Source: Tsukamurella ocularis (GTDB taxonomy: Bacteria; Actinomycetota; Actinomycetes; Mycobacteriales; Mycobacteriaceae). Taken from it: 64,000 nucleotides of DNA. Where the stretch lies: NCBI RefSeq assembly GCF_024807615.1, contig NZ_JANUCJ010000001.1, forward strand, positions 620,001 to 684,000, written 5' to 3'. This document shows positions 2,751 to 63,621 of the stretch, piece by piece (positions within the stretch are counted from its first letter, which is position 1; each line of letters begins with the position of its first letter). A program made the position numbers and the translations under genes. Under the pieces are notes generated by a model. It worked only from the letters and a program-made list of their open reading frames with translations, had not been told where the DNA came from and did not search any database.

Positions 2751-2871
2751 AGGCAGAGCATCACCCGAAGGCCTGTCCGGTTCGTCCGGTCCGTGCCCAG
2801 CCTGTGGATGACGCTGTCCAATTCGAAAAAGGTGTGGAGGAATCCAGGGTGCGCTCTTGCAGGGTGCGCAG

Positions 2872-2891
2872 CGGTGTGACACCGGTACGCT
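2872..2891 (+). promoter_or_regulatory. Palindrome and -10 element before the HAD gene
   Basis: CGGTGT-G-ACACCG forms a perfect 13-base dyad at 2872-2884, followed directly by TACGCT (2886-2891), a plausible -10 hexamer seven bases before the GTG start at 2899. This suggests a leaderless mRNA with an operator overlapping the spacer. No protein is known to me for this dyad. Confidence 0.4.
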
Positions 2892-2898
2892 GATTGGT

Positions 2899-3720
2899 GT
2901 GAGCCCTACCGCGCCCGACGAGGCCCCGGTGCGCCGGGTCGCCGCCTTCTTCGACCTGGACAAGACGATCATCGCGAAATCGTCCGCGCTGGCCTTCTCA
3001 CGTCCCTTTTTCGACGAGGGGCTGCTCAACCGCCGTGCCGTCCTCAAGTCGAGCTACGCACAGTTCCTCATGATGCTCACGGCCGCCGACCACGACCAGA
3101 TGGAACGCATGCGCGACCACCTCACGCAGATGTGCGAGGGCTGGAACGTCGAACAGGTGACCTCGATCGTCCGTGAAGCGCTGCACGACGTGGTGAACCC
3201 GCTCGTCTTCGCGGAAGCCTCGGAACTCATCGCCGGGCACCACGCACGCGGGCACGACGTGGTCATCGTCTCGGCCTCCGGCGAGGAGATGGTGAGCCCC
3301 ATCGCCGAGATGCTCGGCGCCGACTACTCGGTGGCATCGAAGATGAAGGTCGAGGACGGCAAGTACGCCGGCGAGGTCGAGTTCTACTGCTACGGACAGA
3401 ACAAGGTCGTCGCCATGGAGGCGCTCGCGGCTGAGCACGGCTACGACCTCGAACAGTGCTTCGCCTACTCGGATTCGATCACCGACGTACCTATGCTCGC
3501 CGCAGTCGGGCACCCTACCGCGGTCAACCCCGATCGCGGGCTGCGCAAGGAGGCCGCGGAGCGCGGCTGGCCCGTCGTCTCGTTCTCGAACCCCACACCG
3601 TTGCGCGACCGGATACCCACACCGTCGCGCAAATCCGTCCTCGCCAGCGCGGGCCTCGGCGTGGTCGCCGCGGGCGCCGGTATCGCGACTTACCTTGTGC
3701 TGCACCATAAGAAGCACTGA
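2899..3720 (+). CDS. HAD-IB family phosphatase (SerB-like, Rv3661-type)
   Basis: 273 residues. Motif I of the haloacid dehalogenase fold is FFDLDKTII (Asp nucleophile plus Asp-x-Thr). IVSASGEEMVSPI supplies the motif II serine region and YSDSITDVPML the metal-binding motif IV. The IB subclass includes phosphoserine phosphatase-like enzymes, but the true substrate is unknown. The C-terminus ends in a hydrophobic stretch followed by HHKKH, which may be a tail anchor. The GTG start was preferred to the upstream ATG at 2857 because a -10 element sits seven bases before it. It is divergent from ssd, as in mycobacteria. Confidence 0.85.
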   Translation: MSPTAPDEAPVRRVAAFFDLDKTIIAKSSALAFSRPFFDEGLLNRRAVLKSSYAQFLMMLTAADHDQMERMRDHLTQMCEGWNVEQVTSIVREALHDVVNPLVFAEASELIAGHHARGHDVVIVSASGEEMVSPIAEMLGADYSVASKMKVEDGKYAGEVEFYCYGQNKVVAMEALAAEHGYDLEQCFAYSDSITDVPMLAAVGHPTAVNPDRGLRKEAAERGWPVVSFSNPTPLRDRIPTPSRKSVLASAGLGVVAAGAGIATYLVLHHKKH

Positions 3721-3764
3721 TACCGACCGGTAGCAACTGGTCCGAGAAATTTCCCGTCTACCCC

Positions 3765-3793
3765 TTGCTGTGACGCCGCTCACAGGGTAGAAA
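3765..3793 (+). promoter_or_regulatory. Promoter with Crp-type site in the spacer (Ms1-like RNA)
   Basis: TTGCTG (3765-3770), a 17-base spacer and TAGAAA (3788-3793) form a good vegetative promoter, predicting a start near 3800. The spacer contains CTGTGA-N6-TCACAG (3768-3785), an exact match to the Crp/GlxR consensus TGTGA-N6-TCACA with one extra paired base on each side. Binding there would be expected to block RNA polymerase. The next coding sequence on this strand is far downstream, so the promoter most likely serves a non-coding RNA. Confidence 0.7.
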
Positions 3794-3799
3794 GGAGTC

Positions 3800-4106
3800 A
3801 CGGAGCGGCGCAAAGCCAAATCCTCACCGGAAGAGAAGGTCGAGGATTCCTGAGCGTCAAGGCTCCCAGCACGGACACCAGGCACCCACGCGGAGCTCGC
3901 CACCTATGGCGGAAAGCGCTGTGAGCCTGCGTCACCGGGGAATTTCAGTGGTCAGCACAAGATCCGCGGATAGTGGATCTCTCCACCGGTGAACGCCGAG
4001 GCCGTAATACAGCCCACCCTCACGCACGCTTGGTAACCGGGATCCGTGCTAGCGAACGGCGATTCGGACCCGTTCTGAGGAAGGCACCGCGAGTGCCCTT
4101 CCTCAG
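3800..4106 (+). ncRNA. Candidate Ms1/MTS2823-type small RNA
   Basis: An interval of about 300 bases with no convincing reading frame on either strand, between the HAD phosphatase (Rv3661-type) and the Rv3662c-type gene. In mycobacteria this exact gap holds MTS2823/Ms1, a roughly 300-nt abundant RNA reported to bind core RNA polymerase. Here a well-spaced promoter starts transcription near 3800 and a strong hairpin closes the unit at 4106. Internal stems include AATCCTC (3819) with GAGGATT (3842) and AGATCC (3960) with GGATCT (3975). The call rests on synteny, length and promoter; I could not compare the sequence with known Ms1 RNAs, and the exact ends are inferred. Confidence 0.62.
4075..4106. 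terminator. Strong hairpin ending the Ms1-like RNA
   Basis: CTGAGGAAGG-CAC, a five-base loop and GTG-CC-CTTCCTCAG pair over about 13 base pairs with a single bulged base. No U-tract follows, which is common in high-GC actinobacteria. It could also stop transcripts from the opposite-strand gene that ends at 4182. Confidence 0.6.
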
Positions 4107-4181
4107 CGCAGGCCGGGTCGCCGTTGCGCATGTCCGGGCACAATGCTGTCGGATGCCGGACCGCAGCAGCTGGTTCCGAGG

Positions 4182-4919
4182 TCAGCGCTCCGCGAGCGCC
4201 AATGCCTCCCTGCCTCCGGCCTCCAACGCCTGACAGCACAGGACCACCCACGCCACCACGCCGTCGGGCTCGCCCATCCCGAACGCGTCCGCGGCGTCGG
4301 CGTAGCTGGGCGCGAACTTCAGCCACGTGGTCTCGGGGATGCCGAGCGCGTGCGGATCGAGGCCGGACGCCACCGTCACCAGCCGCGACGCGGCACGGGC
4401 GACCACGCCATCGGCGACCTCGAAGGGCCGAAGCGAGAGCAGCTCCCCGTGCACGATCGCCGCGAGCACAGGTGCGGGGGCCTCCGTGCCGCCGGTCACG
4501 AGCTGCGCCAGCAGCCCGAGTCGCTCTCCCGCGCCGGCGCGGGGCCGGCCGAGGCGGGAGTCGTCGCCGTCGACGAGGTCCGCCGCCGCCAGGGTGTGCA
4601 GCCGGGCGAGCACCTGGAGCGGCGCGCGCCTCCACACGCCGACCGAGGCGTCGAGCAGATCGCCGTCGATCGCCTGGTAAGCCCGCATCGCCCCCGCGAG
4701 CACCGGATCATTGATCAGCTCGTCCCGGCTCAGCGCCACGGCCGCGCCGTCGAGGGCCGCCGAGGCGCGGGCACCGCGCAGCGACGATTCCGTGGCGGTC
4801 GCTCGCCACTCCCTGCGGTTCGCGGGATGACGGTGCACCTTCGCGAGCGCCTCGCGCGCGGCGGCGGCCGCCTCCGCGACGGCGGGGACGGCGACGAGCG
4901 GGCTCAGCGGGTCGGTCAC
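4182..4919 (-). CDS. Fic-like protein with degenerate active site (Rv3662c-type)
   Basis: 245 residues, mostly alpha-helical and Ala-rich. Near residue 60 the segment ASAALDGAAV resembles the Ser-x-x-x-Glu-Gly inhibitory/N-terminal signature of Fic proteins (Glu replaced by Asp). Near residue 180, LRPFEVADGVVAR lines up with the Fic core HPFxxGNGRxxR, but His is Arg, Asn is Asp and the first Arg is Val, so AMP-transfer chemistry is unlikely. The GTG at 4919 is preferred because TAGGGT lies seven bases before it; 4928 is an in-frame alternative. The gene lies 39 bases downstream of the dppDF stop and may be part of the dpp transcript. Function unknown. Confidence 0.7.
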   Translation of the reverse strand: MTDPLSPLVAVPAVAEAAAAAREALAKVHRHPANRREWRATATESSLRGARASAALDGAAVALSRDELINDPVLAGAMRAYQAIDGDLLDASVGVWRRAPLQVLARLHTLAAADLVDGDDSRLGRPRAGAGERLGLLAQLVTGGTEAPAPVLAAIVHGELLSLRPFEVADGVVARAASRLVTVASGLDPHALGIPETTWLKFAPSYADAADAFGMGEPDGVVAWVVLCCQALEAGGREALALAER

Positions 4920-4958
4920 ACGACCCACCCTAGCCCGCGCGCCGCGCGTCCCTGCCGG

Positions 4959-23926: not shown

Positions 23927-24693
23927 CGGGCGGCCTCCGGCTGGACGCGCCGGCGCCGCGGCGGGGGCGGCGCGATCTCGAGCAGGTGGTCGCGCTCCGG
24001 CCCCTTGACGAGGTCGGCGGCCTCGGCGGGGTCGATCGGCCCGGTCCCGAACGAGGGACAGTCCTTGGCGAGCACGCAGACGCCGCACGCGGGCTTGCGG
24101 GCGTGGCAGACGCGGCGGCCGTGGAAGATCACGCGGTGGCTCAGCAGGGTCCATTCCTTGCGTGGGATCAGCTCGCCGGCGGCGTGCTCGATCTTCACCG
24201 GGTCGTTCTCCTCCGTCCACTCCCAGCGGTGCACGAGCCGTGAGAAGTGCGTGTCGACGGTGATGCCGGGGACGTCGAAGGCGTTGCCGAGGATCACGTT
24301 GGCGGTCTTACGACCGAAGCCGGGCAACGTCACCAGCTCCTTCATGGTGCGCGGAACCTCGCCGTCGAAGCGGTCAACGAGGGCCTGGCCGAGCCCCATG
24401 ATCGACGTGGCCTTGTTGCGGTAGAAGCCCGTCGAGCGGATGTACTCCTCCAGCTCCGCTCGGTTCGCGCCGGCGTAGTCGGCGGCCGTCCGGTAGCGCG
24501 CGAACAGAGCCGGTGTGACTTGATTCACGCGCACGTCGGTGCACTGTGCGGACAGGATCGTGGCCACCGACAGCTCGAGCGGATCGGTGAAGTCGAGTTC
24601 GCAGTACACGTGGGGGAAAGCGGTGGCGAGTGTCCGATTCATCCGCCGGGCACGGCGCACCAGTCCGAGGTGGGTTTCCGGCTGCGGGGGCAT
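23923..24693 (-). CDS. nth: Endonuclease III
   Basis: 256 residues of the HhH-GPD family. The catalytic Lys lies in the hairpin [12 protein letters not shown], the catalytic Asp in [10 protein letters not shown], and the C-terminal [4Fe-4S] ligands follow C-x6-C-x2-C-x5-C ([17 protein letters not shown]). It removes oxidised pyrimidines and nicks abasic sites. It is the first gene of a four-gene unit (nth, thioredoxin-like, Nudix, marP) in which each start overlaps the preceding stop. Confidence 0.95.
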
Positions 24694-25179: not shown

Positions 25180-25854
25180 GTGGACGAGGTCCTGGCGCGG
25201 GCCGGCATTTTTCAGGGTGTCGAGCCGGGCGCGGTCGATGCGCTCACCAAGGATCTGCACGAGGTCGACTACCCCCGTGGGCACGTCATCTTCAACGAGG
25301 GCGAGCCCGGTGACCGGCTGTACATCATCCTGTCCGGCAAGGTGAAGTTGGGCCGTCGCTCCCCTGACGGCCGCGAGAACCTGCTGTCGGTGATGGGCCC
25401 GTCGGACATGTTCGGTGAGATGTCGATCTTCGACCCGGGCCCCCGCACGTCGAGCGCGACCTGCATCACCGAGGTCCGCGCGATGACGATGGACCGCGAG
25501 GCCCTGCGCGCGTGGATCCGGGACCGGCCCGAGATCGCGGAGCAGCTGCTGCGCGTGCTGGCCCGCCGCCTGCGCCGCACCAACAACAACCTGGCCGATC
25601 TCATCTTCACCGACGTCCCCGGCCGCGTCGCTAAGCAGCTGCTGCAGCTCGCGCAGCGCTTCGGCACGCACGAGAACGGCGCACTGCGGGTGACGCACGA
25701 CCTCACGCAGGAGGAGATCGCGCAGCTCGTCGGCGCCTCCCGTGAGACCGTGAACAAGGCCCTGGCTGACTTCGCGCACCGCGGCTGGCTCCGCCTGGAG
25801 GGCAAGTCCGTGGTCATCACCGACTCCGAGCGTCTGGCACGCCGAGCCCGTTAG
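25180..25854 (+). CDS. crp: cAMP receptor-type transcriptional regulator Crp (GlxR family)
   Basis: 224 residues, the same length as Rv3676. The N-terminal cyclic-nucleotide domain has [18 protein letters not shown] and the phosphate-binding cassette [15 protein letters not shown]. The C-terminal HTH carries the recognition helix [13 protein letters not shown]. It binds TGTGA-N6-TCACA-like sites as a dimer and in this order controls carbon, respiration and stress genes. GTG start. A 195-base upstream region carries a Crp-type site. A perfect 19-base inverted repeat follows the gene. Confidence 0.95.
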
Positions 25855-30171: not shown

Positions 30172-30187
30172 TGTTACCTGAATCACA
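30172..30187 (+). promoter_or_regulatory. Near-consensus Crp-type site between whiB4 and ponA2
   Basis: TGTTA-CCTGAA-TCACA matches nine of ten informative positions of the Crp consensus. It lies about 100 bases upstream of whiB4 and about 130 bases upstream of ponA2, so it could act on either. Confidence 0.45.
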
Positions 30188-63605: not shown

Positions 63606-63621
63606 TGTGAACGGCATCACT
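63606..63621 (-). promoter_or_regulatory. Crp-type site before the amino acid dehydrogenase
   Basis: TGTGA-ACGGCA-TCACT matches nine of ten informative bases of the Crp/GlxR consensus. It begins 29 bases upstream of the start codon and overlaps a second dyad, CTGTG-N5-CACAG, at 63620-63634. Confidence 0.55.

Follow-up and report, generated by a model that had tools for sequence, protein, structure and literature searches.

We identified, in a 64,000-nucleotide stretch of the Tsukamurella ocularis genome (hereafter the window), a homologue of the small RNA Ms1 (MTS2823 in Mycobacterium tuberculosis), which very probably shares the RNA polymerase core-binding role of this RNA, and, inside its promoter, a CRP/GlxR-type dyad, a likely site for the cAMP receptor CRP that looks new. 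We consider it moderately probable that Ms1 is a direct and widely conserved CRP target. In this reading, CRP on the dyad between the -35 and -10 elements would block transcription, and cAMP signalling would determine the pool of free polymerase in Tsukamurella and in many related bacteria, with loss of this control in some lineages.

The RNA itself is already known in Tsukamurella. Tsukamurella paurometabola was named as a carrier of Ms1/MTS2823 in 2011 (PMC3207917), and the genus is listed in Table 4 of a survey that reported Ms1 in 824 species and 146 genera (Vankova Hausnerova 2022, PMC9130861). Ms1 was also reported in Nocardia and Rhodococcus (Hnilicova 2014, PMC4191392), and the class includes Ms1/scr3559 of Streptomyces coelicolor, which is reported to associate with the RNA polymerase core without HrdB (PMC9130861). 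Thus, an earlier interpretation of this DNA, made from its letters and without database searches (hereafter the sequence-only reading), had proposed an extension of the RNA beyond Mycobacterium that was in print for all of these taxa; since Tsukamurella was named in 2011 and 2022, the finding as first stated was already known and adds little, and it is the promoter that matters.

The Ms1 locus and its distribution

The homology to Ms1/MTS2823 rests on a covariance model, the predicted start, synteny and the place of the gene relative to dnaA. Searched by E-value, the Rfam model of Ms1, RF02566, matched positions 3800-4100 of the window over its full length (model positions 1-304; 98.5 bits, E 3.5e-25), which was the single match genome-wide (E 5.2e-25), and the first base matched is the same as the start that the sequence-only reading had expected. 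That reading had named a covariance-model search as a possible refutation, and similarity to RF02566 was found instead. The score falls short of the 162 bits that Rfam sets as its gathering score, which is a cut-off for reporting and not a property of the RNA, and the RNA was therefore missed by the default Rfam scan, which at the curated cut-off reported tRNA only in the window.

Searches of 201 genomes of the family and 150 of the order, run with stricter filters under which some weak matches are lost, returned RF02566 in 182 of the former at E <= 0.01 and in 37 of the latter at E <= 0.001 (17 of the 37 outside the family). Only 36 of the 182 family matches exceed 162 bits, and the Rfam cut-off thus conceals the RNA in the other 146. 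Fifteen of the 19 family genomes without a match make up every sampled genome of one small-genome genus (g3). Another genus (g4; genomes of 3.0-3.9 Mb) gave weak matches of 34-43 bits in three loci (L170, L171, L172) and none in three further sampled genomes, and its Ms1 can be read as diverged or decaying.

In M. tuberculosis, MTS2823 is flanked by Rv3661 and Rv3662c (PMC3207917). The corresponding gap in the window, between an Rv3661-type HAD gene and an Rv3662c-type gene, occupies exactly 3721-4181, the 461 bases claimed for it. The true start of the HAD-IB gene may lie downstream of the TTG with which it opens in Table 1; for the convergent gene, searches of Pfam and NCBIfam gave nothing at E <= 0.001. 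This pair is surrounded by ssd (TIGR03815), the septum-site gene, and by a gene for a dipeptide-type ABC transporter, and the gene order is that of Rv3660c-Rv3663c of M. tuberculosis, these being what we take to be the numbers of the outer genes. The 6C/B11 RNA, which in M. tuberculosis presumably sits between the ssd and HAD genes (here the interval 2600-2857), had no match at the Rfam cut-off in the 64-kb window.

Table 1. Features of the Ms1 locus and the CRP gene (positions in the window)
Feature	Position	Strand	Basis or remark
HAD-IB hydrolase gene (Rv3661 position)	2857..3720	+	TIGR01490 213.8 bits vs cut-off 98.3; PF12710
-35 element TTGCTG	3765..3770	+	sequence
CRP/GlxR-type dyad TGTGA-N6-TCACA, TGTGACGCCGCTCACA	3769..3784	.	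candidate operator; centre -23.5
-10 element TAGAAA	3788..3793	+	sequence; 17-base spacer
Ms1 RNA gene	3800..4129	+	RF02566 match, conservation profile, fold z -6.79; start by homology, 3' end predicted
5' hairpin	3802..3866	+	fold; some consensus pairs changed on both sides
Closing stem, central open region and long hairpin (6S-like body)	3868..4050	+	RNAalifold consensus
Terminator-type hairpin, enlarged in Tsukamurella	4052..4129	+	predicted; outer stem 4052-4070 with 4111-4129
Apical hairpin of the sequence-only reading	4075..4106	+	variable in sequence among species
Convergent gene, family unassigned (Rv3662c position)	4182..4928	-	partner of the HAD gene in relatives
CRP gene, likely dyad binder	25180..25854	+	phmmer E 1.3e-129 to 3h3u_A; HTH_Crp_2 67.4 bits

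Open frames do traverse the gap, including one of 86 aa with a GTG start (3973-4233) and others on the antisense strand, as is expected at such G+C. The longest stop-to-stop stretch in any frame measured 78-132 aa in 14 of the 16 Tsukamurella gaps (the count omits L010 and L016, the borders of which are poorly set), and the indels between these gaps have lengths that are not multiples of three. By inspection, rather than by a formal coding test, we saw no common frame and rejected a protein-coding gap; the view that the gap holds no coding frame stands to the extent that none is convincing.

The Ms1 RNA was present, by DNA match, in all 16 Tsukamurella genomes including that of the window, and both flanking genes were found in 15, the contig of the sixteenth ending before the HAD gene. 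Among 80 named loci retrieved through their HAD protein, four of them from Tsukamurella, a relative of the convergent gene faces the HAD gene in 79, across gaps of 342-806 bases, and two core motifs both occur with at most one substitution in 79.

Ms1 is published as lying close to the origin and being transcribed towards it in 84% of cases (PMC4191392). Taking dnaA as the origin marker, which is an assumption, we found it 331 kb downstream of Ms1 in the window's genome and at about 354, 395, 431 and 475 kb in four other Tsukamurella, with Ms1 pointing to dnaA each time. Thus, Ms1 lies 0.33-0.48 Mb from dnaA and is oriented to it in all five genomes in which both share a contig (six of the 16 were searched; G005 has dnaA on another contig, and two of the five distances assume a circular contig). 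The RNA of the window combines the full-length model match, the gap between HAD and Rv3662c-type genes and the near-origin, origin-directed placement by which Ms1 is recognised, and its assignment to the Ms1/MTS2823 type by the sequence-only reading was borne out.

Predicted fold and length of the RNA

The region 3800-4130 folds at -166.8 kcal/mol (z -6.79), with none of 100 shuffles equally stable, in keeping with the several internal stems that had been proposed. A consensus of the 5' hairpin and body across 51 sequences (RNAalifold) contains 40 pairs, of which 15 are changed on both sides in at least one sequence and are still paired. The alignment was built from 52 hand-picked loci, including the near-duplicates L025/L047 and L027/L077, with L164 dropped as its 3' border was absent at the usual motif. 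The blocks ACCCACGC and CGCCGAGG are invariant in the 51 aligned sequences, and among 14 Tsukamurella the central region is the most conserved, with a mean identity of 1.0 at 3869-3896. The conserved unit extends in these 14 genomes from the promoter to about 4138, and identity to the window drops to 0.32 further on. As predicted, the fold corresponds to a long hairpin with a central bubble and two short end hairpins, except that the 3' hairpin is enlarged and not short.

Tsukamurella thus shares with Ms1 of Mycobacterium smegmatis and MTS2823 of M. tuberculosis the start of the model match, the structure of the body, the central blocks, the flanking genes and the origin-ward orientation, and differs from them in the enlarged 3' hairpin, with an RNA that is probably about 25-30 nt longer. 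Across the 14 genomes, mean identity is 0.72 at 4077-4103, compared with 0.99 and 0.95 in the two flanking blocks. All 16 Tsukamurella sequences are predicted to be able to form a long 3' hairpin of 79-91 nt, with the arms GCGAACGGCGA... and ...TCGCCGTTGC and a variable hairpin at the tip, whereas sequences of other genera, read by eye, have a compact hairpin after the closing stem, typically GCGGGCGG...CCGCCCGC. Automated measurement of the hairpin span performed poorly: of the 119 non-Tsukamurella rows, 30 were unanchored or folded otherwise and the remaining rows shown span 30-56 nt, and in a wider context three of the 16 Tsukamurella rows span only 56-59 nt, so that the ranges touch. The enlargement is accordingly argued from the folding of all 16 sequences and from the sequences read by eye.

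The outer 3' stem comprises 18 pairs, and across 15 distinct sequences 100% of its 270 cells are paired. Two of the pairs have both sides changed; covariation of this stem inside Tsukamurella is thin, because these two compensated pairs come from one genome (L016). In a shuffle control, 3 of 500 shuffles reached the observed value for each of cells paired, both-side changes and covariation score, and all 500 did so for the number of further pair types. Neither conserved 3' block behaves as a repeat: allowing up to 3 mismatches, 4056-4076 has a single occurrence in the window, and the 29-base block 4109-4137 occurs once each in 15 of 140 loci, all of them Tsukamurella.

The 13-base-pair 3' hairpin of the sequence-only reading is real, but it forms only the apical part of the longer predicted hairpin (Table 1). 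Because it is the tip of that hairpin and conservation reaches about 4138, the modelled RNA is probably about 330-339 nt long rather than about 300, the size and 3' end first given being off by probably about 25-30 nt. An E. coli-type scan of 3600-4300 found no U-tailed terminators, and no U-run follows the 3' hairpin, unlike in usual intrinsic terminators. As to a precedent for the enlarged hairpin, the word terminator occurs 0 times in the text of PMC9130861 and 2 times in that of PMC4191392.

A CRP-type dyad within the Ms1 promoter

The promoter proposed from sequence (TTGCTG, 17 bases, TAGAAA) is present at 3765-3793, and an E. coli-type promoter scan of 3600-4300 returned none. The TTG / TA..A arrangement occurs in all 16 Tsukamurella, although the search required these letters, so that their conservation is no independent evidence. 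The letters of the dyad, which shares two bases with the end of the -35 element and occupies most of the spacer, were not required. TGTGA-N6-TCACA is what we take to be the CRP/GlxR operator consensus.

Fourteen of the 16 Tsukamurella carry a perfect dyad and the other two a dyad with one mismatch, and its distance to each promoter element is constant throughout the 16. The promoter script located 145 of 151 loci (missing L030, L166, L167 and L170-L172). In 76 named loci outside Tsukamurella the dyad was perfect in 21 and had one mismatch in 34 (55 of 76 within one) and more in 21; in 53 of 59 other loci, a set that overlaps the named one in some of the same genomes, the figures were 4, 26 and 23. 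These mismatches were counted at one fixed offset, which gives a slight undercount: a looser scan found a perfect dyad one base off in L072 and L084 and a dyad within one mismatch in L063. The high-scoring loci L111-L115 have one mismatch, and the dyad is eroded in L121, L123 and L124. Since at this fixed offset at least two mismatches were found in 21 of the 76 named and 23 of the 53 other loci, control by CRP cannot hold for Ms1 in general.

The half-sites carry more information than the central six bases, with means of 1.94 bits compared with 1.19 in Tsukamurella (15 distinct sequences), 1.30 compared with 0.60 in the named loci (56 distinct) and 1.06 compared with 0.48 in the other loci (45 distinct). 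The perfect dyad occurs at 9 sites in the window's genome (0 for a reversed control) and at 6-12 sites in each of the 16 Tsukamurella genomes (0-1 for the control), and the Ms1 site is the single perfect one in the 64-kb window. Two others lie 42 and 83 bases before the genes for NADH dehydrogenase chain 3 (nuo) and EctA (ectA), respectively. Of the rest, one falls within a long open frame and one beside a small gene lacking an NCBIfam match, and the others lie in the vicinity of genes for a thiamine-diphosphate enzyme, a short-chain dehydrogenase, an MgtE-domain protein and, at a greater distance, a superoxide dismutase. We additionally observed dyads with one mismatch at 24514-24529 (about 650 bases upstream of the crp gene), 30172-30187 and 63606-63621 of the window.

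The genome thus contains both a consensus dyad and a gene for a CRP orthologue, the likely binder of the dyad (Table 1). This CRP shares an identical 30-residue stretch with chain 3h3u_A, which we take to be the M. tuberculosis protein, the stretch presumably surrounding the recognition helix.

We found no published report of CRP control of Ms1/MTS2823 in the literature covered, mostly open-access papers without their supplements. A ChIP-seq study of M. tuberculosis CRP names three sRNAs with CRP sites upstream, none of them as MTS2823, and the words Rv3661 and Rv3662 are absent from its main text (PMC4117774). Other inputs to the locus have been described, namely LexA binding at MTS2823 (PMC4191392) and contributions of the -491/+9 region to Ms1 control (reviewed in PMC8628891).

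RF02566 matched twice in 12 genomes, and in six of these we identified a second Ms1-like RNA (L173, L174, L175, L176, L177 and L178; 246-260 nt, 77-107 bits, match from 1501 to about 1750) with the core motifs present. These come from three genera (g2, g20 and g45), G083 being Aldersonia sp. NBC_00410, and no CRP dyad was found in the 30-60 upstream bases inspected; together with the first Ms1 they look like a paralogue pair comparable to 6S-1/6S-2. One further genome (G026, genus g12) has two Ms1-like RNAs, L166 and L179 (86 and 45 bits), with a one-mismatch CRP dyad upstream of L179. In the other five genomes the second matches (L180, L181, L182, L183 and L184) are weak, at 21-29 bits, and look like chance.

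Alternative readings and the proposed control of Ms1

The fold of Ms1 resembles that of classical 6S RNA (RF00013), a hairpin that mimics an open promoter and likewise acts on RNA polymerase; in the literature 6S RNA binds the holoenzyme and Ms1 the core. The chance that this RNA is a classical 6S RNA is minimal: RF02566 is matched over its full length and RF00013 is unmatched in the genome at E <= 10, in a search that returned RF00013 matches in 8 of 14 control genomes (4 over cut-off), and we rejected this identity as far as the models go. A further abundant and polymerase-bound RNA, CoRP of Corynebacterium, is set apart by its description, with a length of about 500 nt and close homologues reported only within Corynebacterium (PMC11077062). 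It is also very unlikely that the RNA is Ms1 by descent and has since diverged, losing polymerase binding and taking on some other present role. The remodelled 3' hairpin would fit such a history, as would the score of 98.5 bits beside the 224-310 bits of the best-scoring genus (g51, which includes Mycolicibacter arupensis); against this, the central region is the most conserved part of the RNA and its two blocks are invariant in the 51 sequences, and other genera fall under the Rfam cut-off too, including Rhodococcus oryzae (139.2 bits) and Rhodococcoides corynebacterioides (113.7 bits).

More weight attaches to the possibility, which we still regard as rather unlikely, that the dyad is not an operator but belongs to a longer promoter recognised by a sigma factor, or that another activator binds there. 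Its fixed distance from both promoter elements throughout Tsukamurella would agree with this, and the sigma factor for Ms1 has been stated to be not clear (PMC4191392), with a distinct one suggested in a review (PMC8628891). Five loci nonetheless keep TTG, the spacing and TA.AA in the absence of the dyad (L127, L129, L134, L136 and L138), the perfect motif recurs across each genome far above its reversed control, also upstream of nuo and ectA, and its central six bases vary more than its half-sites, all of which count against this reading.

Transcription of Ms1 in this strain would be driven by a promoter of its own and run in the direction of the replication origin. CRP on the promoter dyad may repress Ms1 and hold the promoter closed in growing cells, and lost CRP binding may help Ms1 to accumulate. 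The direction of CRP control is the weakest step of this scheme. In M. tuberculosis, CRP behaves like a classical regulator at some of its sites only, and for a subset of genes repression has been linked to CRP binding near the start (PMC4117774).

By homology, the RNA would bind the sigma-free RNA polymerase core in stationary phase, keeping a reserve of polymerase that would be freed on outgrowth. Ms1 has been reported to bind the core free of sigma, and to do so much less without its bubble, and to rise about 130-fold in stationary M. smegmatis (PMC4191392). More than 60% of the reads in a stationary-phase polymerase sample were Ms1 (PMC11077062), and in one experiment in which CarD or its partner CrsL was depleted, the strongest stationary-phase effect was on Ms1 (PMC12709188).

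The regulator or sigma factor behind the strong stationary-phase rise of Ms1 has been stated to be open (PMC4191392), and the conserved CRP dyad names a candidate regulator. If true, it would tie carbon and energy (nutrient) signalling to the RNA polymerase reserve in actinobacteria.
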